Source of the DNA: Candidatus Hydrogenedentota bacterium
GTDB lineage: Bacteria > Hydrogenedentota > Hydrogenedentia > Hydrogenedentales > SLHB01
Assembly (NCBI GenBank): GCA_016215105.1
Contig: JACRLJ010000066.1
Location: forward strand, 1-42,267
Direction of reading: 5' to 3'
Length of the DNA stretch: 42,267 bases
In this document: positions 3,461 to 19,274 of the stretch, piece by piece
Layout: each line of letters starts with the position of its first letter
Position numbering within the stretch: the first letter of the stretch is position 1
Translations under genes and position numbers: made by a program
Notes under the pieces: model-generated
The model's input: the letters and a program-made list of their open reading frames with translations, nothing else
Told to the model about the DNA's origin: nothing
Database searches by the model: none

Positions 3461-4744
3461 ATGAATCCTGAAACGACGGTAGATATTGCCTACGGAAAAG
3501 GCCGATTGCGCCTTGAACTAGACCGCAAGCTCGCGGAGTGGCGCGTCATCCGGCCCAAATTTGAGCCGCCTCTACCGAACCCGCATGCCGTATTTGACGA
3601 AGTCTGTCGAGCCCCCATTGGATCGCGCCCGCTGCGCGGCGTGGTAGACGCCAAAGATCGCGTGGTTATCGTTACGTCCGACGGTACTCGGCCAGTGCCC
3701 AACAATCTTCTTCTCCCCTGGCTGCTCGAAGAGCTCCCTGTTCCTCTTGATCAGGTCACAGTCCTTATCGGCACGGGAACCCACCGCGGCAATACCGACG
3801 ACGAGCTCCGTTCGATGTTTGGCGCGGACCTCAGCCGCCAAGTTCGGTTCGTCAATCACGACGCCTCGGACCCCGCGCAGAACGTCGAGATCGGCAGAAC
3901 GGAAACCGGCGTCCCCATAACCCTGAACGCGGAATATGTTCACGCCGATAAACGCATTGTTCTGGGTTTTATCGAACCGCATTTCTTTGCGGGCTTTTCA
4001 GGCGGGCCAAAGGGAGTCATTCCCGGAATCGCCGGGCTCGACACGATATTTCACATCCACGGATACGACTTGATCGCGCATCCTCAGAGTACGTGGGGCA
4101 TTTTGACTGAAAACCCGCTTCAGCGCGCCATCGCGGATATGGTGGCGCTGTGTCCGCCCGATTTCCTGGTGAACGTGTCGCTGAATAGTGAGAAGAATAT
4201 CACGGGCGTCTTCGCCGGACATTATATCGAGGCACATCGGGCGGGCTGCGCGCATGTCCGCGAAACCGCCATGATTCCCGTGCCGCATAAGTTTCCCGTG
4301 GTGGTCACATCCAACAGCGGGTATCCGCTCGACCAGAACCTCTACCAAACGGTGAAAGGCATGTCCGCCGCCGCGCGAATTACGGAAGACGACAGCGCCA
4401 TTTTTGCCGCCAGCGAGTGCAGCGACGGCATTCCGGCTCACGGCAATTTCGGAGCCGTGCTGCAACGGCACGAGACCGTCGCCTCCGTCGATTCCTGGCT
4501 TCAACAACTGGCATCACCGGTGCAGGATCAGTGGCAGATTCAGACGTTGGTTCAGATACTCAAGCGAAGCAAGGTCTACCTGCATTCGCAACTCGCCCCA
4601 GAGTGCGTGAGGGCATGCAAGCTGGCGCCCATCTCGTCGCTTGAACTGGGACTTCGCGAGCATATCGAGACCATCGGCCGAGGAGCGCCCGTCGCCGTAT
4701 TGCCGGAAGGCCCCGTCACAATCCCCTATTGTCAGGAGTCCTAG
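3461..4744 (+). CDS. larA: LarA-family nickel-dependent 2-hydroxyacid racemase/epimerase
   Basis: A 427-residue cytoplasmic enzyme of the LarA (DUF2088) family, which uses a nickel-pincer cofactor to invert the C2 stereocentre of 2-hydroxyacids. All hallmark residues are visible and fall at the same numbers as in Lactiplantibacillus plantarum LarA: His108 in GTGTHRG, His174 in EPHFFAGFSGG, Lys184 (cofactor-linking lysine) in GGPKGVIPG and His200 in HIHG. Length is normal for the family. The family includes lactate racemase but also malate and aromatic hydroxyacid racemases and D-gluconate 2-epimerase, so the symbol is by family only. It is convergent with the large catabolic operon, where sugar acids or lactate are plausible intermediates. 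The cofactor-maturation genes larB, larC and larE are not in this window. Confidence 0.88.
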   Translation: MNPETTVDIAYGKGRLRLELDRKLAEWRVIRPKFEPPLPNPHAVFDEVCRAPIGSRPLRGVVDAKDRVVIVTSDGTRPVPNNLLLPWLLEELPVPLDQVTVLIGTGTHRGNTDDELRSMFGADLSRQVRFVNHDASDPAQNVEIGRTETGVPITLNAEYVHADKRIVLGFIEPHFFAGFSGGPKGVIPGIAGLDTIFHIHGYDLIAHPQSTWGILTENPLQRAIADMVALCPPDFLVNVSLNSEKNITGVFAGHYIEAHRAGCAHVRETAMIPVPHKFPVVVTSNSGYPLDQNLYQTVKGMSAAARITEDDSAIFAASECSDGIPAHGNFGAVLQRHETVASVDSWLQQLASPVQDQWQIQTLVQILKRSKVYLHSQLAPECVRACKLAPISSLELGLREHIETIGRGAPVAVLPEGPVTIPYCQES

Positions 4745-4815: not shown

Positions 4816-5595
4816 TCAAAAATCGCGAGAAAAGCCGCAGGTCCAGCCGCCGTCGACGATGAGGTTGTGCCCATTAACATAGCTCCCGGCGTCTGAGACG
4901 AGATACAAGACAGCGGCGGCGATTTCGTCGGTTTCCCCTGGACGCCCCTGCGGAATAAACGACACCAGCCGCTGCGCCAATTCTTTGTTGTTATAGAAGA
5001 GTTGGCGTGTGCCTTCGACAAGCGTCGAGCCAGGAGATACGCAATTGACGCGCACACCCATGGGGCCCAGCTCGCACGCCATGGCTTCGGTCATACGGAT
5101 GACACCCGCCTTCGCGGCTACGAAACCAACTTGAAGTCTCAGCGGCACGACTCCCGCAATGGATGCGATGTTGACAATCACTCCGGAGCGTTGTTTGACC
5201 ATCTGAGCCGCCGCCGCTTTGCAGCAGTAAAACGTCCCATCGAGGTCGACGCTCAGGATGCGCCGCCATGTTTCATCCGGATACTGGTCTACGGTCACGC
5301 GTTCCTCAGGCTTGTCCGTGTTAATCCCCGCGTTGTTCACGGCAATGTCGATCCGCCCGTGTTCCGCGGCGACCGCGGCGAACAACTCCCGTACCTGGGC
5401 TGCGTCCGACACGTCGCACCGGCGAAAAACCGCGTTGAGCCCGAGTTCCTTGGCTGTGGCGCGGCCCTTTGCTTCCTGGACGTCCGAAACCGTAACCAGG
5501 GCGCCGTTCCTCGCGAGCGCTTCGGCGATGGATCGTCCTATCCCCTGCGCCGCGCCGGTAACGACAGCCACTCGGCCCTGCAAATCCACTTGCAT
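4816..5595 (-). CDS. SDR-family protein with the catalytic Tyr replaced by Phe
   Basis: A 259-residue classical short-chain dehydrogenase/reductase and the last gene of the operon. It begins 3 bp after the lipoyl gene, with its ribosome site inside that gene. Visible are the nucleotide-binding TGAAQGIG (13-20), NNAG (87-90), Ser145 (VNIASIAG) and Lys162. The residue four before the Lys, normally the catalytic Tyr of YxxxK, is Phe158 (codon TTC; GFVAAK). The C-terminus has the usual DGGW-type end. Without the Tyr hydroxyl, ordinary ketone/alcohol chemistry should be impaired. It may act on a different reaction, bind a ligand, or be inactive. Context suggests a sugar-acid or keto-acid step. Confidence 0.85.
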   Translation of the reverse strand: MQVDLQGRVAVVTGAAQGIGRSIAEALARNGALVTVSDVQEAKGRATAKELGLNAVFRRCDVSDAAQVRELFAAVAAEHGRIDIAVNNAGINTDKPEERVTVDQYPDETWRRILSVDLDGTFYCCKAAAAQMVKQRSGVIVNIASIAGVVPLRLQVGFVAAKAGVIRMTEAMACELGPMGVRVNCVSPGSTLVEGTRQLFYNNKELAQRLVSFIPQGRPGETDEIAAAVLYLVSDAGSYVNGHNLIVDGGWTCGFSRDF

Positions 5596-5598
5596 CTA

Positions 5599-5898
5599 CT
5601 AGGCCCCCTCTTTCGAGCGAAACTCCTTCACGACCTGTTCGACATCGATCGATTCGCCCGGCGCCGCAATGATGGCTATAGGTTCAAAGCAAGGAATTTC
5701 GCCGTTCTCCGGCGTCGCGAGGATCTTCGCCAGCACTCCGGAATAATCCGCCTCGACTTCCAAGGTGGCCTTGTCCGTTTGGATGCTCATCAGGATCTCA
5801 CCCTTTTGGACCGCGTCGCCCTCATTCTTCATCCACTCGACAATTTCGCCCGCTTCCATGGTCTGTCCCAGGCGGGGCATTACGATTACATGCGCCAT
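5599..5898 (-). CDS. Free-standing lipoyl-domain carrier protein
   Basis: A 99-residue protein consisting of one biotinyl/lipoyl domain and nothing else. It has the MPRLGQTMEAGEI start typical of E2 lipoyl domains, and Lys43 in TDKATLEVEA is the expected lipoylation site. It has no subunit-binding domain and no acyltransferase core. AGAGGAGA precedes the ATG. It sits 16 bp after the E1 alpha gene, so it probably receives the acyl or aldehyde group from this E1. The missing E2 core and E3 would have to come from elsewhere in the genome. Confidence 0.88.
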   Translation of the reverse strand: MAHVIVMPRLGQTMEAGEIVEWMKNEGDAVQKGEILMSIQTDKATLEVEADYSGVLAKILATPENGEIPCFEPIAIIAAPGESIDVEQVVKEFRSKEGA

Positions 5899-5914
5899 TT
5901 CTCTCGAATCTCCT

Positions 5915-6871
5915 CTAGATTTGGGCAGTCAATATTAACGCTTCTTCCGGCGCAGGGAACGGGCTGTCCACCGCGAACGCGGCGGCTTCTTCCGCCTCCG
6001 CTTCGGCTTTCGCAGCCAACGCCGCGAAATCCTCCTCGCGTAGGACGCCGTCTTCAATCAGTTTCTGCTTCCAATACTCGATCGGGTCATGCTCACGGGC
6101 CTCCGTCAATTCCCCCTGCTTGCGATACGCCGCGTCGTCGCCTTCGTAGTGGCCGCGGACGCGGTACGTCACGGCCTCGATAAGCGTAGGGCCTTGGCCG
6201 GTCCGCGCGCGCGACAGGGCCGCTTCCGTCGCCGCGTACACCTCGTCTACGCAGTTCCCATCGACGGTGACACCGGGAATCGAATACGACGCGGCGCGAT
6301 CTCCAATCTTTTCGACGGATGTCGATCGCCAAACCGCCACCGACGTCGCATACCGATTGTTCTCGCAGACGAAAATCACCGGCAGCTTCCATACGGAGGC
6401 CAAATTCAGACTCTCGTGAAACGCCCCGTTGTTCGCGGCGCCGTCGCCAAAAAAACTCACCGCCACTCGATCGGTCTTCTGCATCTTCATCGCCAGCGCA
6501 ATGCCGGTCGCGACCGGTATCCCCGCGCCAACAATCCCAATCGTTCCCATGACGCCGATGTCCGGTTTGAACAAGTGCATCGTGCCGCCTTTGCCACCGC
6601 AGCAGCCCGTCTTTCTCGCGCACACCTCCGCAATCATCTCCTTCATGGGCATGCCCTTGGCGATGCAATGGCCATGACCGCGGTGGGTGCTCGTCAGGCA
6701 ATCGTCCACGCGAAGCTGTGCGCACACGCCCGCTGCAATTGCTTCCTGCCCTTCGTAAAGATGCGCAGCGCACGGGACTTTTCCATTCTTGTACAAGATC
6801 GCCAGCTGCAACTCGGCTTTTCGGATGTTCAACATCGTTTCGAGAAGCCGAACTTTCATCGCGTTATCCAT
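5915..6871 (-). CDS. TPP-dependent dehydrogenase E1 component, alpha subunit
   Basis: A 318-residue alpha subunit of a heterotetrameric 2-oxoacid or acetoin-type dehydrogenase E1. The TPP/Mg motif GDGAANNG (142-149) ends in the classical paired Asn near NN171-172. THRGHGHC (62-69) and the GGKGGTMH block (92-99) match the E1 alpha active-site region. Start ATG follows AAGGAGAGCG. It decarboxylates a 2-oxoacid, or cleaves an alpha-hydroxyketone or diketone, and passes the product to a lipoyl domain. Its sequence looks closer to the acetoin/pyruvate type than to the branched-chain type, but the substrate cannot be read from sequence alone. Confidence 0.88.
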   Translation of the reverse strand: MDNAMKVRLLETMLNIRKAELQLAILYKNGKVPCAAHLYEGQEAIAAGVCAQLRVDDCLTSTHRGHGHCIAKGMPMKEMIAEVCARKTGCCGGKGGTMHLFKPDIGVMGTIGIVGAGIPVATGIALAMKMQKTDRVAVSFFGDGAANNGAFHESLNLASVWKLPVIFVCENNRYATSVAVWRSTSVEKIGDRAASYSIPGVTVDGNCVDEVYAATEAALSRARTGQGPTLIEAVTYRVRGHYEGDDAAYRKQGELTEAREHDPIEYWKQKLIEDGVLREEDFAALAAKAEAEAEEAAAFAVDSPFPAPEEALILTAQI

Positions 6872-6884
6872 GGTGTCGCTCTCC

Positions 6885-7871
6885 TTACGCTTCGGACTTC
6901 AGCAGGGCGCGCACGGCAGCCGCAACACGCTCGGGATTGGGAAATACGTAGTCTTCCATAGGAGGACTGAACGGGATGGTGGTGTGCATCGTGGTCAGTT
7001 GGCGCGGCGGACGGCGCAAGGAGTCCATGGCGTTCTCCACGACAAAAGCAATGATCTCGGAGCCAAATCCGCAGTACCGGAACCCCTCTTCCACGCACAA
7101 TAGGTTTCCGGTCTTCCGGACCGAAGTCAGAATCGTTGCGCCGTCATACGGCATGAGCGTTCGTGGGTCAATGACCTCTACGGATATCCCCTCCTTCGCA
7201 AGCGCTTCCGCGGCCGTCAGACTGAAGCCCACCATGGCCCCGGTCGCGACGATCGTGAGGTCCGTGCCTTCCCGCTTCACTTCCGCCACCCCAAGTGGTA
7301 TGGCAAATGGCTCTTCGGGCACGTCGCCGCGCACGTTGAACAGAAGCTTGTGTTCGAGGTAGATCACCGGATCGTCGTCGCGAATCGCCGAGATGATAAG
7401 ACCCTTCGCGTCATTCGGCGTGCTCGGCAACACCACTTTCAACCCGGGCGTGTTTATAAACCACGAATAGAAGGAGCCGGAATGGTGCGCCGCGTTGGAC
7501 TTCGATTTCCCCGTCGACATCCGGTACACCAGCGGAACCTTCACCTGGCCGTTCGAGATGTAGCGGAGTTTCGCCGCTTGATTGCAGATTTGGTCCATCG
7601 CCAGCATCGAGAAATCGATCCACATCAAATCGGCAATCGGGCGCATGCCCATCATCGCCGCGCCCACGGCCGTTCCGGCGATGGCCAGCTCGGAGATGGG
7701 GGTATCCCGCAGCCGCTCTTCGCCAAACTGCGCGCACAGTCCATCGGTCTGTTTGAAGGCGCTGCCGTGTGGCCCCACGCCTTCGCCCATGATGAAGACC
7801 GAGGGGTCCCGTTCCATTTCCTGGCGCATGCCTTCACGCAGCGCCTCGATAAAACGAATTCTTCTAGCCAT
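6885..7871 (-). CDS. TPP-dependent dehydrogenase E1 component, beta subunit
   Basis: A 328-residue transketolase-like beta subunit, partner of the E1 alpha encoded 13 bp downstream. The ATG at 7871 is chosen because GAAGGAG precedes it and residues 1-25 (ALREGMRQEMERDPSVFIMG, then EGVG) align with the family's N-terminus; the open frame continues upstream into the preceding gene without homology. Visible are the GEGVG glutamate region and the central block rich in MIGMRPIADL-like sequence (here MMGMRPIADLMW), and near the C-terminus the usual LLCVEEG and the PP..TTMHTTIPFSPPME region. Together with alpha it forms the E1 tetramer. Confidence 0.88.
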   Translation of the reverse strand: MARRIRFIEALREGMRQEMERDPSVFIMGEGVGPHGSAFKQTDGLCAQFGEERLRDTPISELAIAGTAVGAAMMGMRPIADLMWIDFSMLAMDQICNQAAKLRYISNGQVKVPLVYRMSTGKSKSNAAHHSGSFYSWFINTPGLKVVLPSTPNDAKGLIISAIRDDDPVIYLEHKLLFNVRGDVPEEPFAIPLGVAEVKREGTDLTIVATGAMVGFSLTAAEALAKEGISVEVIDPRTLMPYDGATILTSVRKTGNLLCVEEGFRYCGFGSEIIAFVVENAMDSLRRPPRQLTTMHTTIPFSPPMEDYVFPNPERVAAAVRALLKSEA

Positions 7872-7894
7872 GACAACTCCTTCTATGAACCCGG

Positions 7895-8686
7895 CTAAAC
7901 GGCCTCGATGGCCTGCTTCGAGCAGCGAAAACCTTCTCCAGGCGTTAACAGCCGCACGAACACGTCCGGACACCGCCGGGCGCACGCCTGAACGAACGAC
8001 TCGGGGTCGCCGTTGTGTTCCTTGAACATCCAGTAGTGGCACGGAACCACTACCCGGGGCGAAATGAGCGCCGTAAGTTCGGCCGCCTCCTCCGCGTTGA
8101 GATTCCCGAAGCGTCCGTTGATACAGCAGAGGAAGACATCGGGTTTTAAGTCGATCAGCGGCTGCATCCAGGGAATGTTCAGCGCCGTGTCGCCCGTAAA
8201 CAACACCCGTACCTTGCCGAAATCGAACAACAGAGAAAGTGACGTTGGCGACAATTCGCCGTGATCCGATCGGGCTGTCACAATATCGACGCCGCCCAGT
8301 GAATAGCGTTGACCGGCTTCCATCAACGTGACTCGGCTCTCCGCGATGCCCATCTTCTCGTACTCGGGAATACACGCCACCGACCCAGCGAAACGGCAGG
8401 CCGGGTTGTTGCGCGCGATGATCGGCAGCGCATCGGTATCCAGGTGGTCAAGATGCTCATGCGAACTCACAACCCAATCGGCCCGGACCTCATCCGCCTG
8501 AATCGGCGCCAGCGAAAGGCGTTTGAATCCAAACGCCTTCTCGACCGCGTGCGAGAGATAGGGATCCACGTACATGACCGTGCCCGGAGCCGTCTTGAAG
8601 ACGAATCCGGCTTGTGCAAGCCACCACACATCCACGCCGCCATCCGGCGCGCTTGTCGCGTTGATTTCAGCAGCCAGCGTGTTCAT
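7895..8686 (-). CDS. UlaG-like metallo-beta-lactamase-fold hydrolase (probable lactonase)
   Basis: A 263-residue cytoplasmic metallohydrolase. The ATG at 8686 has GGGAGG upstream; the open frame extends another 44 codons into the FAH gene and is not used. The metal motif HEHLDH lies at 76-81, a GDT metal Asp at 165-167, and a late His in VPCHYWMF. WLAQAGF and DPYLS near the start, and INGR.GN.(N/D)AEEAAEL later, resemble UlaG, the L-ascorbate-6-phosphate lactonase. In an operon with two SDRs, opening of a sugar lactone made by oxidation is the likely role. The exact substrate is inference. Confidence 0.8.
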   Translation of the reverse strand: MNTLAAEINATSAPDGGVDVWWLAQAGFVFKTAPGTVMYVDPYLSHAVEKAFGFKRLSLAPIQADEVRADWVVSSHEHLDHLDTDALPIIARNNPACRFAGSVACIPEYEKMGIAESRVTLMEAGQRYSLGGVDIVTARSDHGELSPTSLSLLFDFGKVRVLFTGDTALNIPWMQPLIDLKPDVFLCCINGRFGNLNAEEAAELTALISPRVVVPCHYWMFKEHNGDPESFVQACARRCPDVFVRLLTPGEGFRCSKQAIEAV

Positions 8687-8703
8687 CGCATCCTCCCGCT
8701 TGT

Positions 8704-9501
8704 CTAGTGTTCGGCCACGACGCGGTTTCGCAAGACGCCAATTCCCTCGATGTCCACTTCGCACGCATCGCCCGCTTTGAGCAACACCGGCGGCTTCCGC
8801 GCAATTCCGACGCCGCACGGCGTGCCCGTGTAGATCGCCGTTCCCGGCGCCAACGTCATCGACTGGCTCAAATAACTTACAAGGTACGCCACGCTGAACA
8901 CCATGTCCTTCGTAGACTGATCCTGCAGCGTCTCACCGTTTACGCGCATGCGGATGCGGACGTTGCTTGGGTCGAGACCCGTGACTACGTACGGCCCCAT
9001 CGGGGCAAACGTATCGAAGCTCTTAGCCCGCGCCCACTGCCCGTCGCTCTGCTGGCAGTCGCGCGCGGACACGTCGTGGCCACAGGTAAAGCCGAACACG
9101 TATTCCAGCGCCTTCTCCACCGGAACATGCTTGGCCTTGCGCCCGATAATCGCCACCAACTCGGCTTCGTAATCGACCTGCGCCGGCGCGGCGCTCGGAA
9201 TGACGATGTTGTCCTCGTGCGCGATCAACGCGGTCGTCGCCTTGATGAACAGGAGGGGCGCCTTCGGAAGTTCGTCGGCGGTCTCCTTGGCATGCTCGAC
9301 GTAATTGCGTCCTATCGCGAGAATGTTGGGCGGGTCCACGGGTGGAAGATACCGCGTGATGTCCGCTTCCTTGATGATCTCGCCCGCCGGCTCCGGCGGG
9401 TCGAACAGTCCACCCTTCAACACTCGAATTGTCCCGTCTTCTTCCACCAAACCATATCTTCCCTGCGGGTACCGGGCGGTAATGAATCGAACGAACTTCA
9501 C
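8704..9501 (-). CDS. Fumarylacetoacetate hydrolase (FAH) family enzyme
   Basis: A 265-residue enzyme with GTG start after AAAGGAG. The FAH fold is shown by IGRNYVEHAKE (His70), the metal ligands Glu112 and Glu114 in DYEAEL, Asp143 in GHDVSARD, Lys160-Ser161-Phe162-Asp163 (AKSFDTFAP) and the C-terminal APGTAIYTGTPCGVG. Relatives hydrolyse or decarboxylate diketo acids: fumarylacetoacetate, 2,4-diketo-3-deoxy sugar acids of the L-fucose/L-rhamnose pathway, and acylpyruvates. Next to a lactonase and two SDRs, C-C cleavage of a diketo-deoxy sugar acid is a reasonable guess, but no sugar-acid dehydratase is present in the window. Confidence 0.85.
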   Translation of the reverse strand: MKFVRFITARYPQGRYGLVEEDGTIRVLKGGLFDPPEPAGEIIKEADITRYLPPVDPPNILAIGRNYVEHAKETADELPKAPLLFIKATTALIAHEDNIVIPSAAPAQVDYEAELVAIIGRKAKHVPVEKALEYVFGFTCGHDVSARDCQQSDGQWARAKSFDTFAPMGPYVVTGLDPSNVRIRMRVNGETLQDQSTKDMVFSVAYLVSYLSQSMTLAPGTAIYTGTPCGVGIARKPPVLLKAGDACEVDIEGIGVLRNRVVAEH

Positions 9502-9529
9502 GCGATGCGCTCCTTTCTTTGCGTCTGCG

Positions 9530-10486
9530 TTAGACCAACCGCGATGCCGGGTCTCTCCCGAGCAGGAAGTCCCGTGCGGCTTCGGCGGCTTTGCGTTGCA
9601 GCATCTCCACGGCGCGTTCCGAAACGGACGCGGCGTGACTGGTCAGAATAACATTTGGGAACGTGCGGAGCAGGCTTGCCGCCGGAAGCGGCTCTTCCTC
9701 GAACACATCGAGGCCCGCGCCGCCGAGACGTCCCGACTTCAGCGCCTCGACAAGGGCCTCCTCGTGTACGACCGGCCCGCGCGAGGTATTGACCAGAATG
9801 GCGCCCGGCTTCATCCGGCTGAACGTCTCGCGGTTCATGAGATGCGTCGTGGCCGGAACGAGCGGACAATGCAGTGAGATAACGTCGGCCCGTTCGAGCA
9901 ACTCGTCGAACGTGACGCGCGCCGTCTTGTATTCGGCAAATACGGAGTCGTTCACATAGGGGTCGTGAGCGGAAAGGGAAAAACCAAGCGACGCCGCTTT
10001 GCGCGCAAGGTTGCGGGCAATCCGTCCGAAGCTCACGAGGCCCAGGGTAAGATCGGTCAGCGCGTGCAGCGGCCGAAACGGGTTGATGCCCCAGCCGCCC
10101 TGGACGATCTGATGATGGTCCTGGGGGATACGCCGGCACAGCGACAGGATCATGGCCAAAGCGTGATTGGACACTTCTTCGAGGCAGTAGTCCGATACGT
10201 TGGCGGCTACGACCCCCAGGTCCTTTGCCGCATCAAGGTCAAAGTTATTCACGCCAACGCCGTAACGCACGATGCAGCGCACGTTGGGCAACGCCTCAAG
10301 CACGCGGCGTGTCACCGGCGCCCACTGCACCAGCAGGGCGTCCGCGTGACCACAGGTACGGATGATATCGTCTTCGGTCTTGCAGATCGGTTGGATGGTC
10401 TCGAATGCAAAACCCGCCGACTCGATCACCTTGCGCTCGATATCAACGTTCGGAAAGCCATAATCGGTAACGATCACTTTCTTCAC
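9530..10486 (-). CDS. D-isomer-specific 2-hydroxyacid dehydrogenase
   Basis: A 318-residue NAD-dependent dehydrogenase like phosphoglycerate dehydrogenase but without ACT domain. GTG start follows AAGGAGGAAGA. Catalytic Arg236 (NTSRGP), Glu265 (GLDVFEEEP) and His284 (LTSHAA) are present, and Asp175 at the end of beta-2 points to NAD. The usual Rossmann GxGxxG begins with Ser152 instead of Gly (GLVSFGRIA). It interconverts a 2-keto acid and a D-2-hydroxyacid, for example glyoxylate, hydroxypyruvate, D-lactate or a sugar acid. It is the fifth gene of the operon. Confidence 0.85.
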   Translation of the reverse strand: MKKVIVTDYGFPNVDIERKVIESAGFAFETIQPICKTEDDIIRTCGHADALLVQWAPVTRRVLEALPNVRCIVRYGVGVNNFDLDAAKDLGVVAANVSDYCLEEVSNHALAMILSLCRRIPQDHHQIVQGGWGINPFRPLHALTDLTLGLVSFGRIARNLARKAASLGFSLSAHDPYVNDSVFAEYKTARVTFDELLERADVISLHCPLVPATTHLMNRETFSRMKPGAILVNTSRGPVVHEEALVEALKSGRLGGAGLDVFEEEPLPAASLLRTFPNVILTSHAASVSERAVEMLQRKAAEAARDFLLGRDPASRLV

Positions 10487-10507
10487 AAATCTTCCTCCTT
10501 AGCGCTC

Positions 10508-13500
10508 TTATTCGTACGCAATTTCCTTGAGTCGGTTATTGAAATCAGCCGGCGCCGGGACGGCTGCCCCTTCGGCCTTCTCCGCCGCATATCCAATCAG
10601 GTTGAGTAGCAGCCGGTCCGCCGCCGGGTGACGGTCCATGTTGTTGAGCAGATTCAAGGAGTTCAGAACGAACCAGCCCTCACCAAACCGGTACGAGCCC
10701 AACAACACGCCGGACGCATAGCCTCCAGCCGGCGAAGTATGGCATGGCGCGAACGCCGCCGCGACAACTTCGTCGGGTGTATCCTGGCCTTCAAAAATAA
10801 AGTGCGGAATGACGGGACCATAGTAGTCCCAATCCATGATGCCTTTGGCCTGCAGTCCATTGAATATCGGATGCGCCTTCGCCACGCATTCTTTGTGATA
10901 AAGCCAGTCGTTGAATTCGTAGCCTTTCCCCTTGTTCTTCAAGGGCAACCAGCCGACGGCGTCTTCTCCGCGCTTGAAGGCCTGAGGGGAAAGAAATACG
11001 GCTACACTGCCGCACGCCACGCGGCGAAGCAGCTCGACGCGCAGTTTCGCATCCGGCGGCGGCCCCGGCAGTCCACCTACAAGGATGACGCCGCGCGTGT
11101 CCGCTTTTGAGGTCTCGAAAGGCCCGCACGTAACACCATGTGCCCCCAGCCAGACGCCGGTCGGATCATCGATTCCCCACGTCAACACCGTCTGTTTTAG
11201 CGGGGTCACCGGAACGGTGGATAGCCGGAACGTTAGCCGTCCACCCGAGGGCGCGCCGCCCGAATCGAGGTTTGCCGCGAACTCGTATTGTCCTTCTGGC
11301 CCGCTCAGGACCGCCTCGCCCGTAAACACGGGCACGGCCAACGGCCCGTCCTCCCCGGACGCAGGCTGCGGAATCCGCACAACGGTCTTTTGTTCCCAGA
11401 CGGTTCCCGCCGCGCCATTCACACGTAACGTGACTGGGTATTCTCCCGGCGCGAGCACTCCGTCGTTCGCCAGCACCGCCTCGAGCTTCACCGGTCTGCC
11501 GACATATCCGTGCATCGGGGATGCGAAAAGGCACCAGCGCAACGGAGCCCAGCCGTCTTGAAGCGCTTCGACGATGCCCGGCTTCCATTCGCGCCACAAG
11601 GTCCACAGCCCTTCTCCGGCGAATACATGGTCCAGCAGCCCAGTGAGATTGAGGCCGCAGATATTGGGATTCGAGCGGATCAGATCGAATCCGTGCGTGC
11701 GCTGGCGGCAATGAAGCCGCTGGCTCTCCCGCAGCAAGTCCTCCGGAAACGCATAGACGCCGTTGAAACCGAGACGGTTCCAATCCGCCTCGAACGTCTC
11801 GGCCATGCGGCGATAATATTGCATATCGTCGAGCTTGGGGTTCACACCGTATTGCTCGTACGTGCGCACACTGCGGATTACGTTGTCGAGACTGCCAATG
11901 CCGTACTCGGATAAGAAAATCGGCTTCGTGTCACGGCCGAGCGCGCGGAGATTGGCGTCCGCATCGGGCGACGTTGGAACGGCAGGGTAGATATGCGTGT
12001 CACCCATCACCTTGGGCGCTTTGACAGGAACGTAATCGGGGGCCTCATTGCCCCAGACATGCTCCCATTCGGCGCTACCGGGATTGCTGGCCGAGCCGAT
12101 GTTGTACTGCCCGTCCCAGCGTCCGCTGCCCAGCAGCGTCAGTCGTGTATCGTCGAGCGAGCGTACCAGTTTCAAGCTGTCCACGGCGTGGCGGAACACC
12201 GGGCCATCCTGGACCTCGTTAAGCAAGCCCCATATCACCACGCTCGGATGATTTCGGTCGCGCTTGATCGTTTCTCCCACCGAGCGATCGAACCGCTCCG
12301 CCATTTTCGGCGAATCAGCGAGCGCCGAAGCCGCTGCGTTTTCCTCATACACCATCAAGCCGATTTCATCGCACAAATCAAGTTGCTCTGGTTGCGCCGT
12401 ACACGCGATGAAGCGAACCGCATTGAAACCGGACGCTTTCATATACAACAGGTCCTTGCGCAACAGATCGGCCGTTTGCGCGGGGGGCACGACCTGCCCG
12501 ACGGGACACTGGTTGAGCGTGTGTGAGCTGCGCAAAAAGATACGGCGGCCGTTAAGCCGGAAGAACCCTTTCTCGACGCGGAAATCGCGGAATCCGAAAC
12601 GGACGTCATGTTCGTCAGAAGAAGAGGCCGCCGCGCACTCGAGCTTCGTTTGCAGACGGTACAGACTAGGCTCTTGCACGTCCCATAGGCGGGGCTGCTC
12701 GACTTGAACCTCCGCTTCAATCACGGTATTGCCCGGCCCAATGCGGCGTTCGAGCCGCGCCGACGCCGATGCCGCGTTTTCCGGCGCGCGCGTCACGATG
12801 AACTCGAGGACGGCGTCCGTCTCGCTCTCCGCGGTGTTGCGCACCGTTGCCTGAATCCGGATCTTTCCCGTTTTCCAATCCGGACGAACAAACACGTCCT
12901 CGATGCGCGCCGAAGAAACCCACTCGACGCGTACCGGTTCGTTTATTCCTCCCCAGTTATACGCGCAGCCCGTGGTTAGTATTGGATTCTTGAATTGGTG
13001 AGGCGTCTCGGAAATCACCATTCCGTCGATGAGGCGATCTCCGGTTGGATTCACAACGCGCACCGTGAGACGATTGCTCGCCCCCGGCTTCACGGCGTCG
13101 GTGGCGTCCAGAGCAAACGGCGTTTCGCCCCCTTCATGACTGCCCACCAAGATTTCGTTGAGCCAAACGTCGGCCGTGTAATTCACCGCTCCGAAGTGAA
13201 CCAGCAGACGCCCGCCGGGATATGGATTGGCGGAAACCATAAAGTCGCACTGGTACCATGCTACGCCATGATATCCGGGAAGCGACTCCTGGATGATTCC
13301 GGGGACTCGGGCGGGCTGCGCGCCTTCCAGCGCATTCTTCCACCAACTCCGATCCCGTCCCACGTTCTCGGAATCGGGCGCAATCTTCCACACTGCCCCA
13401 TCTATCGAGACACTCAGTCTCCCAGGGGTATGGCCTCGCGGCGTCGAGACGTTCACCGAAGTGGGCTCGGCGCCCAACGCCATCCACGCGGACGCCACCG

Positions 13501-13552
13501 CAATCAGAAGCAGAACGAGCGTTGTCTGCGCCCTCAGGCTACTCAGACTCAT
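10508..13552 (-). CDS. Secreted glycoside hydrolase family 2 protein
   Basis: A 1014-residue exported glycosidase. The ATG at 13552 is preferred to a GTG at 13564 because GGAAAAGAGA precedes it and the signal peptide (LVLLLIAVASAWMALGA) starts nearby. Domain order fits GH2: sugar-binding jelly roll (about 50-215, with WYQCDF and ADVWLNE), Ig-like domain (about 215-325, RLWDVQEPSLY), and TIM barrel (about 330-600) with acid/base Glu446 in WGLLNE and nucleophile Glu549 in LSEYG. The final 400 residues form beta-rich domains I do not recognise. Members act as beta-galactosidase, beta-glucuronidase or beta-mannosidase. It probably supplies the sugar taken up by the MFS transporter of the same operon. 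Confidence 0.88.
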   Translation of the reverse strand: MSLSSLRAQTTLVLLLIAVASAWMALGAEPTSVNVSTPRGHTPGRLSVSIDGAVWKIAPDSENVGRDRSWWKNALEGAQPARVPGIIQESLPGYHGVAWYQCDFMVSANPYPGGRLLVHFGAVNYTADVWLNEILVGSHEGGETPFALDATDAVKPGASNRLTVRVVNPTGDRLIDGMVISETPHQFKNPILTTGCAYNWGGINEPVRVEWVSSARIEDVFVRPDWKTGKIRIQATVRNTAESETDAVLEFIVTRAPENAASASARLERRIGPGNTVIEAEVQVEQPRLWDVQEPSLYRLQTKLECAAASSSDEHDVRFGFRDFRVEKGFFRLNGRRIFLRSSHTLNQCPVGQVVPPAQTADLLRKDLLYMKASGFNAVRFIACTAQPEQLDLCDEIGLMVYEENAAASALADSPKMAERFDRSVGETIKRDRNHPSVVIWGLLNEVQDGPVFRHAVDSLKLVRSLDDTRLTLLGSGRWDGQYNIGSASNPGSAEWEHVWGNEAPDYVPVKAPKVMGDTHIYPAVPTSPDADANLRALGRDTKPIFLSEYGIGSLDNVIRSVRTYEQYGVNPKLDDMQYYRRMAETFEADWNRLGFNGVYAFPEDLLRESQRLHCRQRTHGFDLIRSNPNICGLNLTGLLDHVFAGEGLWTLWREWKPGIVEALQDGWAPLRWCLFASPMHGYVGRPVKLEAVLANDGVLAPGEYPVTLRVNGAAGTVWEQKTVVRIPQPASGEDGPLAVPVFTGEAVLSGPEGQYEFAANLDSGGAPSGGRLTFRLSTVPVTPLKQTVLTWGIDDPTGVWLGAHGVTCGPFETSKADTRGVILVGGLPGPPPDAKLRVELLRRVACGSVAVFLSPQAFKRGEDAVGWLPLKNKGKGYEFNDWLYHKECVAKAHPIFNGLQAKGIMDWDYYGPVIPHFIFEGQDTPDEVVAAAFAPCHTSPAGGYASGVLLGSYRFGEGWFVLNSLNLLNNMDRHPAADRLLLNLIGYAAEKAEGAAVPAPADFNNRLKEIAYE

Positions 13553-13633
13553 TCTCTTTTCCACTTCGTCACCACGGTGTTGTTCTTGCCGCCACTCATC
13601 GAGGTATCTGCGCCTAGAATCAGGTTGTCTTTG

Positions 13634-14797
13634 TCACGCTTCCGGGGACAGCAGGCGCCGCGCCGCCGCAAGGACCTTGTCCTCAGGCCCGCGAAACGCC
13701 CACACCTGCGCCGTATCGTCACAACGGAAGCTGCCCGTCTTCCCGCCAATCGCAGGAATGTGATATTCGAGTTCGCTGAATTCGCCCAGCGCGCTGTTCA
13801 CATTACAGGCCTGGGTCGAGTATCCAAGATCCTCCGGGTCTTTCCACGGCGCATCGATGTATTCGCCGGAAGGATTCACGACGAAATTCCGCACGATGAG
13901 CGAGCGCGTCTTGCCCGCGCCGGAAAGATACCCGACGCGGCCCGTGGTCGCCACGGCGCGCACCCCCAACTTGTGTTCCCCCTTTGCCCGCATCTTGTAT
14001 CGGATTAAGTGCTCTCCCGCGATGAGATCTTCCGGCGATATCTCACCAAACCAAATCTTCGGCTCCGTCTTGTGATACACCGGAATCAGCAGGTCGCCGT
14101 TGTGCGGCATCTGCACCAAGTTCCACAACCCTATCATCGGTTTGTCTTTCGCAGGGTCCCCGAGCATCTCGAGACGCGTGTGTTGGGTGTAACCGGCGTA
14201 CTGCACGCCAGCGAGGTCGAGCTTCCGTTCATAGCGCAGCGGATTGGCCGCCGGACCGACGGACTTGGTCATGCGCAGCTCGACTTCCTGGCCGGATCGC
14301 GAAAGCTTGAGCTTGAGCCGGTTGACGAGTTCGAGTCCGCCATCGCCCTTCACGGCTTCGTAGTTGCCCGGATCGAGTTCGCGCGGCTGAAAGTAGGTCT
14401 TCGTGTCCGGATACTTCGGAAGGAATATATCCACTTCGGGCGCCAGCCACGTGCGATCACCGCCGGAGTTGTGCCAGTCCTTGCTCGCGTAGAATGCGCG
14501 CGCCGTCTCCTCCGCGCCAAGGGCGGGATGGGTCCAATAGAAATTGTCCTCGCTTCCCGGAGCGAACAGGCCGAGCACGCGCCCGCCGTACGGAAGCAGA
14601 AGGACGGTTGTACCGTCCGCTTGCGTCACGGCTTGGGCGGGTTTGCCGACCGCTTTCAATACTTCGAGAAGCCCGCTCTTGCCCGGCGCGGCGCCCACCG
14701 CGGCCGCCTCCGCTGCGGCTTCACCGGCAAGACCTGCGAGACAGGCCGCCCCAGTCCCTAGCGCCAGCATGTCCAGAAACTCCCTGCGGCTTTGCAT
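13634..14797 (-). CDS. Tat-exported protein of unknown function
   Basis: A 387-residue protein with an N-terminal twin-arginine signal (SRREFLDM, Ala-rich core). The start ATG is preceded by GGGAGG. The mature part is beta-rich with many WF/WTHP-type segments (for example FYWTHPALG and DRTWLAPEVD). It resembles galactose-mutarotase-like carbohydrate-binding proteins (DUF4380/DUF6786 type), but I did not recognise catalytic residues. It lies between the secreted GH2 and the MFS transporter, so binding or epimerising the released periplasmic sugar is a plausible role. This is inference. Confidence 0.7.
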   Translation of the reverse strand: MQSRREFLDMLALGTGAACLAGLAGEAAAEAAAVGAAPGKSGLLEVLKAVGKPAQAVTQADGTTVLLLPYGGRVLGLFAPGSEDNFYWTHPALGAEETARAFYASKDWHNSGGDRTWLAPEVDIFLPKYPDTKTYFQPRELDPGNYEAVKGDGGLELVNRLKLKLSRSGQEVELRMTKSVGPAANPLRYERKLDLAGVQYAGYTQHTRLEMLGDPAKDKPMIGLWNLVQMPHNGDLLIPVYHKTEPKIWFGEISPEDLIAGEHLIRYKMRAKGEHKLGVRAVATTGRVGYLSGAGKTRSLIVRNFVVNPSGEYIDAPWKDPEDLGYSTQACNVNSALGEFSELEYHIPAIGGKTGSFRCDDTAQVWAFRGPEDKVLAAARRLLSPEA

Positions 14798-14840
14798 AAG
14801 GAAATACCTCCCAGGTTATGAGAATGAATCCCAAGACAAC

Positions 14841-16223
14841 TCATTTCTTCTTCCACGAAGCTGCGATTTCCTCGAGTACTCTGCCTTTGGTCTCGGGCAG
14901 CATGCGCACCCCGAACACGAATGAGAACACGCATATCACCGAGAACAGCCAGAACGCCCCGCCCACGGAGCCGAAAATGCGCTCCGAGTAGTCGCTGATG
15001 ATTGGAAACAACTGGGCGCCGCTATAGATCGTTAGCCAGAGGAACGCGGTCGTCAGCGCGACGGCGCGGGCCCGAAGCCGGGTCGGGAAGATCTCCGACA
15101 TCATCAGCCAGGGCAGCGGACCAAGCGCCAAGCCGTGGGGTACCGTGCAAAGAATGATCACCACAAGCACGAACCAACCGCTCAAGTGGAACTGGAACAC
15201 CGCGCCGGTCATAGCCGTGACCACACACATCAACGCCGACGCGCCTAACCACAGCGGACGCCGGCCGACGCGATCCACGAACCAGCAGGCCGCAAGCGTC
15301 ACCGCTCCCATGAAACCGTACGTAACCGCATATTGCAGAAACGCCACCGAACGGTCCTCGAGCCCGGAGGCCTCGAACAGCATCGGAACATAGCCACTAA
15401 TGACGCTCCAACCCGTCCAGTTGTTGAAGAACGCCAGCAACAAACCGATGGCGAAGGCATACCGCGTTCCAGGCGCAAACAGTTCGGAAAAGCTTCCCGT
15501 TTCTTCGTTCAACGCGGCCTGGATCTGCTTCATCTCTTCGCGCGCGAAATCCGGACCGTCCACGCTCGAGAGCACCGCGAGCGCTTCATCGTTCCGGCCC
15601 CGGCCCGCCAGCCACCGCGGACTCTGCGGAAGGAAGGCCAGCAACACCAGGAACACGGCCACGGGCAAGATTTCCGAGGCGAACATCCACCGCCAGCACG
15701 TCTCCGGTGAGGCCACCTTGATGATGATATACGATATAAACGGCGCCGCGACGCTGCCCACCACGATCGCAAGTTGGTACATGACACCAAGCCCGCCGCG
15801 CATGCGGGGAGGCGAGACCTCGGAGATGTACATGGGCGACGCCACCGAGCAAAGGCCCACACCTACGCCGCCGATGATGCGGAATATGTTAAACGTCGTG
15901 ATGTCGTTCGGTATCGCGGTGAACAGCGACCCGATGCCCAGCAACGCGCACGCCACCATCATCGTCCGCGTGCGGCCCAACGCATCGCACATCCACCCTC
16001 CGAGAAAGGGTCCGATGATGCACCCCAGCGCGGCGCTGCCGGTCGCAAAACCAAACTCCGCCGGAGTCAAGTGGAAAACGTCCTTGAGATACAGGTTTGC
16101 GCCGCACACAATCGCGAGATCGTATCCGAACAGGAAGCCGCCCACCGAGGCCACAAACGCCACCCCAAAGGCATATCTGCGCGACTGCGTCTCCCCACCG
16201 GCGGCTTGGCTATCTCGATTCAT
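14841..16223 (-). CDS. MFS sugar:proton symporter, SP family
   Basis: A 460-residue inner-membrane transporter with about 12 membrane helices. The ATG at 16223 is chosen because ACAGGAGGAAG lies just upstream and helix 1 follows after a short basic tail. Signature motifs of the XylE/GalP-like sugar porter family are visible: GGFLFGYDLAIVCGA in helix 1, GRTRTM after helix 2, PQSPRWLAGRGR in the central loop, DRVGRRPLW, and PETKGR at the C-terminus. It is predicted to import a mono- or disaccharide, or a polyol. It is second in the operon. Confidence 0.9.
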   Translation of the reverse strand: MNRDSQAAGGETQSRRYAFGVAFVASVGGFLFGYDLAIVCGANLYLKDVFHLTPAEFGFATGSAALGCIIGPFLGGWMCDALGRTRTMMVACALLGIGSLFTAIPNDITTFNIFRIIGGVGVGLCSVASPMYISEVSPPRMRGGLGVMYQLAIVVGSVAAPFISYIIIKVASPETCWRWMFASEILPVAVFLVLLAFLPQSPRWLAGRGRNDEALAVLSSVDGPDFAREEMKQIQAALNEETGSFSELFAPGTRYAFAIGLLLAFFNNWTGWSVISGYVPMLFEASGLEDRSVAFLQYAVTYGFMGAVTLAACWFVDRVGRRPLWLGASALMCVVTAMTGAVFQFHLSGWFVLVVIILCTVPHGLALGPLPWLMMSEIFPTRLRARAVALTTAFLWLTIYSGAQLFPIISDYSERIFGSVGGAFWLFSVICVFSFVFGVRMLPETKGRVLEEIAASWKKK

Positions 16224-16281
16224 GAAGCTTCCTCCTGTTTCGCGTCCGATGAACAATAAGATGCTGCGATCAAAACACCTG

Positions 16282-17124
16282 CTACACGCCCGGGAGATAC
16301 CCCTTCCCAAAACGGGCCGTCCACTCGTTTCGAAAATCCGAAATCAACGACATCAGCGAGGTCGTGCCGCCGTCGGCCACGATGGTTTGACCCACGATGT
16401 AGCCCGAATCCTCCGAACACAGAAACACCGCCAGCTTGGCGATATCCAACGGTGTGCCCGACCGGCCCAAAGGCACTTTCGCGGCGGCGTCCTTCTTCGC
16501 GTCTTCCTCATTGAAGCCCGGTAAGACGTTGTAGTAGTTCTCGACCGTTACCCAGCCCGGCGCGATCGCGTTGATGCGAATTCCCTTGTGAGCCAGTTCC
16601 ACGGCCAGCGACCGCGTGTACGAGACAATCGCCCCCTTTGTGCCTGCGTATACCGAATGTTCCGGCGCGCCTTGCACGCCGTGAATCGAGGTGATGTTGC
16701 AGATGGTCCCGCCACCGTGTGGCTCCATATGAGCCGCGATGCGCTGGGTGAGGAAAAACTGCGCGCGAATGTTCACGTGATACATCTGGTCGAATTGCTC
16801 GCGCGTGACCTTCAGAAAGGGTTTGTTGAACGTAATCCCCGCATTGTTGACCAGGCAGTCAACCCCGCCAAGAAACTCGAGCGCCGATTCGCCCAGCGCC
16901 ACCACCTCATCCACGTCGTCAAAGTTCGCGCGGATTGCCGCTGCCTTGCGGCCCATGGCCTGAATCTCGTCGACCGCGCTCTTTGCGCCCGCGTCGCTGT
17001 GCGCGTAATGCAAGACCACGTCCGCCCCTTGACGCGCAAACTCGATCGCAATTTCGCGGCCGATTCCTGTGCCGGACCCCGTGACAAGCGCCTTCTTCCC
17101 TGCAAGCTTACCTGTGCGACTCAT
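16282..17124 (-). CDS. SDR-family sugar or alcohol dehydrogenase
   Basis: A 280-residue classical SDR and the first gene of the operon. The ATG at 17124 is chosen over a TTG at 17148; AGGGATGAGGG precedes it. The set is complete: TGSGTGIG (15-22), NNAG (93-96), Asn119 (VNI), Ser146 (NITSIHG), Tyr159 and Lys163 (YAGTK), then PGWVTVE. An insert around 185-210 (NYYNVLPGFNEEDAKK) is typical of glucose/sugar 1-dehydrogenase-like SDRs. It may oxidise the imported sugar to the lactone or another position. The closely following transporter supports this but does not prove it. Confidence 0.88.
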   Translation of the reverse strand: MSRTGKLAGKKALVTGSGTGIGREIAIEFARQGADVVLHYAHSDAGAKSAVDEIQAMGRKAAAIRANFDDVDEVVALGESALEFLGGVDCLVNNAGITFNKPFLKVTREQFDQMYHVNIRAQFFLTQRIAAHMEPHGGGTICNITSIHGVQGAPEHSVYAGTKGAIVSYTRSLAVELAHKGIRINAIAPGWVTVENYYNVLPGFNEEDAKKDAAAKVPLGRSGTPLDIAKLAVFLCSEDSGYIVGQTIVADGGTTSLMSLISDFRNEWTARFGKGYLPGV

Positions 17125-17260
17125 TTCACAGCCCTCATCCCTGCCCAAAAGGCAGACCGAACGACCTGAAGCCCAAGATCACGACGTGACCATGGCGAAA
17201 CCGCGGGACGCCCCGTCCCGGCGGCATCAGCAGCCACTTGAATATGCATTTGCGCGAACG

Positions 17261-17280
17261 CGTGTCCGGACACGTGTCCG
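17261..17280. promoter_or_regulatory. Overlapping palindromes, probable operator for the LacI-type regulator
   Basis: Two perfect 14-bp palindromes overlap: CGTGTCCGGACACG (17261-17274) and CGGACACGTGTCCG (17267-17280). They start 6 bp downstream of the -10 box, over the expected transcription start. This is a classic repression position. LacI-family operators are CG-centred palindromes, as here. The neighbouring lacI-type gene is the obvious candidate. Confidence 0.65.
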
Positions 17281-17286
17281 AACGGG

Positions 17287-17315
17287 ACTTTACAGCAATG
17301 TTTTCACGGAGTCAA
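17287..17315 (-). promoter_or_regulatory. Predicted sigma70-type promoter of the catabolic operon
   Basis: On the minus strand TTGACT (17315-17310) is separated by 17 bp from TAAAGT (17292-17287). The -35 matches consensus in 5 of 6 positions, the -10 in 4 of 6, and the spacing is ideal. It points into the operon beginning at 17124. Confidence 0.65.
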
Positions 17316-17419: not shown

Positions 17420-17447
17420 TAATTCGTAATTGTTAATTCTTAATTAC
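17420..17447. repeat. Four 7-bp tandem repeats across the lacI-type stop codon
   Basis: TAATTNN occurs four times without gap (TAATTCG, TAATTGT, TAATTCT, TAATTAC). The stop codon of the regulator gene and its last residues (VIKN) fall inside it, so slippage here could change the C-terminus. Confidence 0.6.
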
Positions 17448-18809: not shown

Positions 18810-18838
18810 TTGACAAACTCCACCTGCGGGTGTATTCT
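18810..18838 (+). promoter_or_regulatory. Predicted promoter of the blaI-M56 genes
   Basis: TTGACA (18810-18815, perfect -35) and TATTCT (18833-18838) are separated by 17 bp. The promoter is enclosed by two identical operator-like palindromes, and the predicted start falls at the second. Confidence 0.7.
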
Positions 18839-18842
18839 GAAT

Positions 18843-18858
18843 CGCGAAAGAATTCGCG
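18843..18858. promoter_or_regulatory. Operator 2 upstream of blaI-like gene
   Basis: A second perfect copy of CGCGAAAGAATTCGCG, located 4 bp after the -10 box and over the expected transcription start. Binding here would block initiation, the usual autoregulation of BlaI/MecI repressors. Confidence 0.65.
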
Positions 18859-18878
18859 ACTACAGGAGGCTCCACCCC

Positions 18879-19274
18879 ATGGCGCGCCGCAAAACCAAGA
18901 CCCTCACCGAACTCGAACTCGAAATCATGCAGGCCCTCTGGGAACGCGGCGACGCCACTGTCGAGGAGCTCGCCGACATCTTCGCGGACCACGGCAAACC
19001 CCTCGCGCCCTCCAGCTTCCGCACCATGCTCAGCATCCTCAAAGACAAAGGCTACGTCACCCGAAAACGCGCCGGACGCGGCTTCGTCTACCAGGCGCGC
19101 GTCGCCGCCGAAAAGGCGCGGAAGAGCATCCTGTCCGACCTGATCAGCCGTGTGTTCGACGGCTCCGCAACGGACCTCGTCGCCGCGCTCGTCCGGGACG
19201 GCATGGTCAGCGCCGACGACCTTGCCAAAGCGCGCGCGCTCATACGCCAAACCGAAAAGGGGGAGAAACGATGA
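18879..19274 (+). CDS. BlaI/MecI-family transcriptional repressor
   Basis: A 131-residue winged-helix repressor. The ATG at 18879 follows CAGGAGG; an upstream TTG frame is ignored because it begins inside the -35 box. LTELELEIMQALWERGDATVEELA (about 8-31) and the recognition region SFRTMLSILKDKGYVTRKRAGRGFVYQ are typical of the family, as is the C-terminal dimerisation helix region. Such repressors are released by cleavage by, or signalling from, an M56 membrane protease, and that gene overlaps it by ATGA. The target need not be a beta-lactamase; none is present here. Confidence 0.92.
   Translation: MARRKTKTLTELELEIMQALWERGDATVEELADIFADHGKPLAPSSFRTMLSILKDKGYVTRKRAGRGFVYQARVAAEKARKSILSDLISRVFDGSATDLVAALVRDGMVSADDLAKARALIRQTEKGEKR

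Follow-up and report, generated by a model that had tools for sequence, protein, structure and literature searches.

A LacI-linked operon of Hydrogenedentota that may encode a non-phosphorylative sugar oxidation with thiamine-dependent cleavage

We examined a 42,267-base stretch (the window) of contig C103 from a Candidatus Hydrogenedentota bacterium, whose genome comprises 6.68 Mb in 171 contigs (95.2% complete) and whose closest relatives by protein search bear record titles of Hydrogenedentota. The subject is a block of eleven co-oriented minus-strand genes at 4816-17124, with a LacI-family gene upstream, and the sugar pathway that these genes may encode. Starting from the short-chain dehydrogenase SDR1, they follow one another as an MFS sugar porter, a DUF6786 protein, a GH2 glycoside hydrolase, a D-2-hydroxyacid dehydrogenase (HADH), an FAH-superfamily hydrolase, a UlaG-like hydrolase of the metallo-beta-lactamase (MBL) fold, E1 beta and E1 alpha of a thiamine-dependent dehydrogenase, a lipoyl-domain-only protein, and a second short-chain dehydrogenase relative, SDR2 (Table 1); with the starts chosen here, the successive gaps are 58, 43, 69-81, 21, 28, 17, 23, 13, 16, and 3 bp. 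An earlier note on this DNA had described eleven co-oriented genes with gaps of 3-81 bp, an upstream lacI, and a promoter with overlapping palindromes, all of which we confirm. The enzyme families that it listed also stand, except that it omitted the lipoyl protein, and the DUF6786 protein can now be described as mutarotase-like.

Table 1. Genes and sites of the operon and its immediate neighbors, in window coordinates
Feature	Position	Strand	Basis
LacI-family regulator	17433..18452	-	PF00356, PF13377; upstream of SDR1, start chosen
Promoter-like site, then twin palindromic operator (putative)	17315-17287, then 17280-17255	-	sequence motif
SDR1, probable sugar 1-dehydrogenase (tetrad N-S-Y-K)	16282..17124	-	PF13561/PF00106
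MFS sugar porter, SP family	14841..16223	-	PF00083, E 1.7e-88; TIGR00879, 292.6 bits (cut-off 237.8)
DUF6786, mutarotase-like protein	13634..14797	-	PF20583
GH2-family glycoside hydrolase	10508..13564	-	PF02836, PF00703, PF02837
D-2-hydroxyacid dehydrogenase (HADH)	9530..10486	-	PF02826/PF00389
FAH-superfamily hydrolase	8704..9501	-	PF01557, E 7e-71
UlaG-like MBL-fold hydrolase, probable sugar lactonase	7895..8686	-	PF13483
E1 beta, thiamine-dependent dehydrogenase	6885..7871	-	PF02779/PF02780
E1 alpha, thiamine-dependent dehydrogenase	5915..6871	-	PF00676, E 2e-85
Lipoyl-domain-only protein, TDKA lipoylation-type site, without E2 catalytic domain	5599..5898	-	PF00364 only
SDR2, short-chain dehydrogenase relative (tetrad D117-S145-F158-K162)	4816..5595	-	PF13561
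LarA, nickel-dependent lactate racemase, converging on the operon	3461..4744	+	NF033504, 461.2 bits (cut-off 460)

Operator and distribution of the block

The promoter-like site ahead of SDR1 (TTGACT-17-TAAAGT, 9/12 matches) is weak evidence by itself, since seven sites of such quality occur in 17.5 kb versus 4.6 expected. Downstream of it lies the palindrome CGGACACGTGTCCG (17267-17280), overlapped by a second copy with one mismatch (17255-17268). Counts of the motif within the window do not exceed chance (3 matches versus 2.33 expected), and an initial guess at the operator core had no match. What argues for more than chance is its recurrence at the same place, upstream of SDR1: one other Hydrogenedentota genome (L020/L024) has two overlapping exact copies there, and the LacI-SDR1 region of an armatimonad locus (L027) contains an exact pair spaced 90 bp apart. 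LacI control, as the earlier note proposed, is thus supported by an operator that recurs in two other genomes. An exact copy is lacking in 148 of 157 loci and was not found in the other block stretches examined (L017, L018, L019, L021, and L022/L041). In L017 and L041, lacI immediately precedes SDR1 with a short gap, so that their promoter may lie ahead of lacI, beyond the stretch. Since the only further exact copy in the host genome sits inside a coding frame of C138, we take LacI control to be local to the operon. A wider LacI regulon was dropped as an idea because too many sites to be usable turn up once a single mismatch is allowed (38 on the forward strand and 36 on the reverse, versus 7 and 14 in the control).

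The earlier note had read the genes as a single pathway and had held that lack of conservation in relatives would speak against it. A comparative search for conserved gene order, with the UlaG-like protein as query against 68 genomes of the phylum, found the reverse. Twelve genomes match at 1e-10, and seven of them, including the host, at 2.5e-51 or better; E1 and HADH adjoin the UlaG-like gene in all seven (an HADH-UlaG-E1 core in 7/68). The core order is preserved in the six other Hydrogenedentota loci and pieces occur in other phyla, which supports the single-pathway idea. In G050 only part of the block is seen because the contig is 8.3 kb long. The interval between DUF6786 and HADH holds other genes in four of the six loci, among them PfkB, URO-D, and Ldh_2 in L020. 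In L022 (9575-10281), matches to the UlaG-like gene are split over two overlapping frames, through either a frameshift or an assembly error.

A scan of one genome per species gave 121 relatives, of which the best 80 loci were taken. Co-occurrence with E1 was counted over 82 loci, leaving out L023, L024, L025, and L041 as repeats of stretches already taken. E1 beta lies in the same stretch in 6/7 loci whose UlaG-like protein is at least 60% identical to that of the window, in 5/17 at 43-60%, in 4/10 at 35-43%, and in 3/48 below 35%, all of these being lower bounds because many contigs are short. Among the loci listed, fuller or partial sets occur under the titles Armatimonadota, Planctomycetota, Verrucomicrobiota, Chloroflexota, and Bacteroidota, and SDR1, UlaG-like, E1, and SDR2 genes recur jointly in several phyla with differing order and fusions. 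The Bacteroidota set of L050, for example, consists of SusD, an unknown protein, GH2, GH127, a mutarotase-like protein (c8), SDR1, the UlaG-like protein, a fused E1-lipoyl protein, SDR2, and a RhaT-type transporter. Because c8 had no match among Pfam or NCBIfam models, its mutarotase-like character is our own reading of its sequence. DUF6786 occurs in 13 distinct loci (window included) and c8 in nine, never in the same stretch.

Predicted roles of the enzymes

The first enzymes point to oxidation of a free sugar. SDR1 scores 235.4 bits with the NCBIfam glucose 1-dehydrogenase subfamily (cut-off, 215), a model broad enough that SDR2 also exceeds its cut-off (229.7 bits); SDR1 has the classical Asn-Ser-Tyr-Lys tetrad, and relatives up to 86% identical occur in other clusters. 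The DUF6786 protein has, by eye, a Tat-type N terminus in Hydrogenedentota, a leader lacking in relatives outside the phylum. Its AlphaFold2 model (pLDDT, 77.4; from 11 sequences) finds hexose-6-phosphate mutarotase and galactose mutarotases as the best PDB folds; with an E value of 2e-5 and a TM score of 0.41, we hold this fold assignment with only moderate confidence. It is a first functional clue for DUF6786.

The UlaG-like protein has the MBL fold with an HxHxDH metal motif, as in the UlaG lactonase family, and H76, H78, D80, H81, D166, and H217 are invariant in 30 aligned sequences. The nearest PDB folds of its AlphaFold2 model (pLDDT, 95.5) are those of UlaG itself (2wyl/2wym; TM score, 0.82-0.85; 18-19% identity). 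It shares with this L-ascorbate-6-phosphate lactonase the fold and the metal motif but differs in sequence (18% identity over the structural alignment), falls far below the equivalog cut-off (45.5 versus 306 bits), and has no other ascorbate genes in its block. A PHROGs scan of the protein gave no match. We also considered it as a thioesterase for an acyl-lipoyl group and rejected this on two grounds: a full E2 is encoded in the Chloroflexota locus L045, and members of the family accompany SDRs in stretches where no E1 is seen. The front half of the operon therefore suggests mutarotation, C1 oxidation, and lactone opening, as judged from families and models. Lactone formation and opening, which the earlier note had proposed, are supported as the likely first steps, with UlaG as the nearest fold. 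In several lineages, the UlaG-like gene has genes for URO-D family proteins nearby (L039:5810-7726, L020:5529-6758, and L055:10790-11866), one of the proteins being fused to corrinoid-binding domains, which hints at demethylation of the sugar.

The GH2 gene, which the earlier note had placed in the pathway, lies outside the conserved core. Relatives of it are found in none of the six other Hydrogenedentota loci in the stretches examined, although they do occur in Planctomycetota and Bacteroidota clusters (L034, L036, L048, and L050), and database names do not fix its substrate specificity. A second GH2, 56% identical, lies on the same contig about 100 kb away (G000 C103:117842-119863; L002; L128:8272-11454), among frames unlike those of the operon.

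SDR2 shares with the classical SDR family (glucose 1-dehydrogenase/FabG-like) its overall family membership, the Gly-rich motif, and the Ser and Lys of the active site, but in contrast to SDR1 it does not have the N-S-Y-K tetrad. Across 19 relatives with at least 44% identity to the window protein (duplicates removed), Asp stands in place of the tetrad Asn in all 19, Ser and Lys are kept in all 19, and the catalytic Tyr is replaced by Phe in 15, giving D-S-F-K, and retained in four (D-S-Y-K). L066 (45% identity) lacks the clade motif and was moved to the comparison group. The 41 aligned comparison SDRs from the loci, a 42nd being a fragment lacking the tetrad region, have N-S-Y-K in 32 cases and deviate at the first, second, or fourth place in nine; all of them have Tyr, and Asp is never found at the first place. 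In the three best PDB relatives of SDR2, too, these places are Asn and Tyr. Within the SDR2 clade R99, R153, Q155, Y201, and W251 are invariant. The Phe and Tyr forms intermingle on the tree, so the tetrad hydroxyl seems not to be essential. SDR2 was also considered as a missing dehydratase and set aside, since no sound mechanism could be drawn on paper.

The E1 genes linked to the block are a group of their own, with 17 compared sequences forming one clade (support, 0.985). The E1 beta of the window is 42-48% identical to those of four acetoin-dehydrogenase-like operons, 46-50% to polyol- or sugar-linked E1s (L114, L116, L135, L136, and L137), and 35-38% to a further two E1 betas of the host; for both subunits combined, the acetoin-type and the polyol- or sugar-linked groups are at 43-49% and the E1s on host contigs C17 and C88 at 33-38%. 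The acetoin-like contexts contain butanediol dehydrogenase (L115), acetoin reductase with butanediol dehydrogenase (L134), and an NAD kinase, which we take to be AcoX, with a sigma-54 regulator (L139). The Klebsiella locus L133 is presumably acetoin-type as well, and its E1 alpha matched in part only. Thus, acetoin dehydrogenase (acoAB-acoC-acoL) is among the closest named E1s (E1 beta, 46-48% to the Klebsiella and Acinetobacter operons), with the polyol-linked ones equally close. The block differs from it by its own E1 clade, its sugar-oxidation setting, and a lipoyl-only protein where acetoin operons encode E2 and E3: neither an E2 catalytic domain nor an E3 is found in the block. The earlier note had led the products into a thiamine-dependent dehydrogenase; the E1 family holds, the enzyme is not obviously a pyruvate dehydrogenase, and both the pathway substrate and the sequence of the final reactions can only be proposed.

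The lipoyl protein stops after its domain in six Hydrogenedentota loci. Elsewhere, the domain is fused to E1 (L032, L034, L048, L050, L092, and L095) or separate and short (L052), while the lipoyl gene reaches the contig end in L039, L040, and L049. The full E2 of L045 comprises lipoyl, E3-binding, and catalytic domains (PF00198, 269 bits), and because of this relative we infer that the product is probably an acyl-CoA and that, where no catalytic domain is encoded, a host E2 core steps in. PF00198 matches occur on five contigs of the host genome. In other settings, acetoin-type E1/E2 sets adjoin sugar/sorbitol-type transport genes on plasmids (L114, L116, L135, and L136; E3 in three of the four). 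On a Vescimonas plasmid (L140:2800-9975), a TRAP transporter is followed by a tartronate-semialdehyde-reductase-like protein, an MBL-fold hydrolase, and complete E1, E2, and E3 components, possibly a distant cousin of the block.

Proposed pathway and its rivals

We propose, with a probability of about 0.38, that the operon encodes a LacI-controlled pathway in which a sugar is oxidized without phosphorylation and the resulting keto-aldonate is finally cleaved by a thiamine-dependent enzyme. GH2 (in the host genome) would release a sugar, and the SP-family porter would import it. The mutarotase-like DUF6786 protein, which has its export-type leader in the host and none outside the phylum, would speed anomer exchange, SDR1 would oxidize C1 to give the lactone, the UlaG-like enzyme would open this to the aldonate, and SDR2 would make a keto-aldonate. 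The acetoin-dehydrogenase-like E1 would then cut the hydroxyketone bond beside the keto group and load the acyl piece, acetyl from a 6-deoxyhexose and otherwise glycolyl, on the dedicated lipoyl protein; a host E2 core would then transfer that piece to CoA. A 6-deoxyhexose substrate would suit acetyl transfer to that core. HADH, plus FAH where present, would handle the remaining aldehyde-acid and 2-hydroxyacid pieces. As chemical precedent, PMC12016104 describes a mutant transketolase that converts 5-keto-gluconate to tartaric semialdehyde.

In favor of keto-aldonate cleavage, some gene sets have no FAH, the block has no dehydratase, the E1s form a separate clade, and SDR2 is altered. The series SDR1-UlaG-E1-lipoyl-SDR2 occurs without FAH in the stretch in two Bacteroidota loci (L050 and L052) and two Hydrogenedentota loci (L019 and L021). 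Several points weigh against it. The enzyme functions are predictions from families and comparison, and the altered tetrad makes ordinary dehydrogenation by SDR2 doubtful. The E1 clade is supported by the tree and not by identity, since its members outside Hydrogenedentota and Armatimonadota are 45-49% identical to the window E1 (one Chloroflexota row, 51%), no closer than acetoin and polyol E1s. Its sister group is unsettled (supports, 0.72-0.87), with the host C17 E1 and an Azospirillum E1 beside the clade on long branches. Directly behind the active-site HS, the E1 beta loop has Gly, Ala, or Ser in 17/17 clade rows and Gln in 10/14 others; this residue is not diagnostic of a new reaction, because Gly is also found in the Enterococcus acetoin operon, one of four. 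For the same reason, we discarded the Gln-to-Gly change as proof of acetoin-type chemistry. On the side of the gene content, FAH is retained in five of seven Hydrogenedentota blocks, the genomes of L048 and L050 have a 47% identical FAH relative away from the cluster, and a distant UlaG-like relative (29%) in Thermomicrobium adjoins an enolase-superfamily gene. Moreover, 2-keto-3-deoxy intermediates are hinted at by genes found in some clusters, a KDG-kinase-like PfkB (L020, below family cut-offs) and DHDPS-type genes.

Such intermediates belong to the best-surviving alternative, a modified form of the established non-phosphorylating diketo route for L-fucose/L-rhamnose with an unlinked dehydratase, which we regard as rather unlikely. 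As described in PMC11199699, that route (FucM, FucA, FucB, FucC, FucF, and FucG; LRA5/LRA6) uses a mutarotase, an SDR-type 1-dehydrogenase, a lactonase, a second SDR, and an FAH hydrolase, for which the block has predicted counterparts, and FucM-FucA-FucB follow the same front-end logic; SDR1 fits the SDR type, and the candidate lactonase corresponds by its UlaG-like fold only. The block differs in that fold, in lacking a dehydratase, in the altered SDR2, and in the dedicated E1-lipoyl module. After mutarotase, 1-dehydrogenase, and lactonase had produced the aldonate, the unlinked dehydratase would yield a 2-keto-3-deoxy acid, SDR2 would oxidize C4, and FAH would release pyruvate and lactate; LarA and HADH would turn lactate into pyruvate, and E1 with the lipoyl protein would form acetyl-CoA.

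The dehydratase speaks against this route. The earlier note had seen no sugar-acid dehydratase, and this is borne out for the block: a Pfam scan of the block proteins found none of known type, and the 30 neighbor proteins given to Pfam likewise include no enolase-, IlvD-, or UxaA-type enzyme. The host genome has one IlvD-type gene, none of UxaA type, and four MR_MLE matches (three over cut-off), none of them in the window. Those over the cut-off are MenC (C24), beside chorismate-binding/thiamine enzymes, one whose best-scoring model, below that model's cut-off, is muconate cycloisomerase, and one weak match. The host thus offers a single dehydratase candidate, an enolase-superfamily protein on C121, besides a weak match on C104. 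Among the relatives, there are 4-10 MR_MLE matches per genome in all eight genomes searched, which makes an unlinked dehydratase conceivable.

The FAH protein bears on the diketo route in both directions. Its best NCBIfam match is the 2,4-didehydro-3-deoxy-L-rhamnonate hydrolase model (NF053535), with 189.5 bits and thus below the cut-off of 500, and it is related to L-2,4-diketo-3-deoxyrhamnonate hydrolase (8gsr, 161.7 bits) but scores higher with other FAH enzymes (184.4 bits with 4pfz). At 1e-30, relatives are found in 16 of 18 genomes and in two there are none; only five genomes besides the host have relatives of 71-80% identity, and G040 (96% complete) has one of 38% only. The earlier note had FAH in the pathway, and while the family stands, its constancy does not, given its absence from several clusters and from these two genomes. 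SDR2 also fits the diketo route poorly: besides the changed tetrad, it has Gln three residues before the catalytic Tyr/Phe, where by spacing the Arg148 given in PMC11199699 would fall. In favor of the diketo route, the clusters hold 2-hydroxyacid enzymes of three families, with Ldh_2 and GlcD types present in relatives, and LarA just reaches the lactate racemase equivalog cut-off; however, LarA lies in the stretch of only one of six relatives (L020, a 65% identical relative about 5 kb beyond SDR2), and its role in the pathway is uncertain.

A cyclitol route, in which SDR1 and SDR2 would make a diketo-cyclitol and the UlaG-like enzyme would hydrolyze its ring, is improbable. In the Thermotoga inositol pathway, the ring of a diketo-cyclitol is hydrolyzed by a UlaG-like enzyme, and L042 has two SDRs and a UlaG-like gene with no E1 in the stretch. 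However, the mutarotase-like proteins and the GH2, GH36-type, and GH127 neighbors suit a reducing sugar better, and the closest fold of the UlaG-like protein is a lactonase. Chain shortening is less probable still: HADH would oxidize C2 of the aldonate, E1 would decarboxylate the 2-keto-aldonate, and the shorter acyl group would lactonize and be reopened by the UlaG-like enzyme. It would draw on the three families of 2-hydroxyacid oxidizing enzymes in the clusters and on the lipoyl carrier without an E2 catalytic domain in most lineages seen, but it leaves SDR2 without a role, and L045 has a full E2. That a sugar-oxidation block and an unrelated pyruvate-handling block merely share the operon would agree with a gene content that differs by lineage and with the many loci whose more distant UlaG-like genes have no E1 in the same stretch, but is made very improbable by the joint recurrence of SDR1, UlaG-like, E1, and SDR2 genes across phyla.

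Other genes of the window surround the operon. A dockerin-bearing repeat protein (243-2174) is followed by a DUF7901 protein (2185-2931) with, by eye, a PEP-CTERM-like tail; an M56 (BlaR1-type) peptidase gene (18830-20428) lies upstream of the LacI gene and divergent from it; and a gene at 28948-29565 belongs to the Y1 (IS200-like) transposase family (24.9 bits; cut-off, 23).

Taken with keto-aldonate cleavage as the preferred reading, the front half of the operon follows known logic and each enzyme is of a known family, while the combination looks undescribed: in the open-access literature searched, we found no paper containing DUF6786 and none on the gene combination. It is doubtful, though conceivable, that the block represents a widespread and undescribed breakdown of sugars without phosphorylation or dehydration, in which an SDR with a rebuilt center acts together with an E1 that loads a private lipoyl carrier and borrows the host E2. 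Two enzymes are offered for testing, an SDR family with Asp-Ser-Phe-Lys and an E1 pair with its carrier and no E2 catalytic domain. By record title, the gene set occurs in loci of six phyla, many of them metagenome assembled and often near glycosidase genes. Thus, an undescribed route of this kind could explain part of the carbohydrate turnover in sediments and waters.

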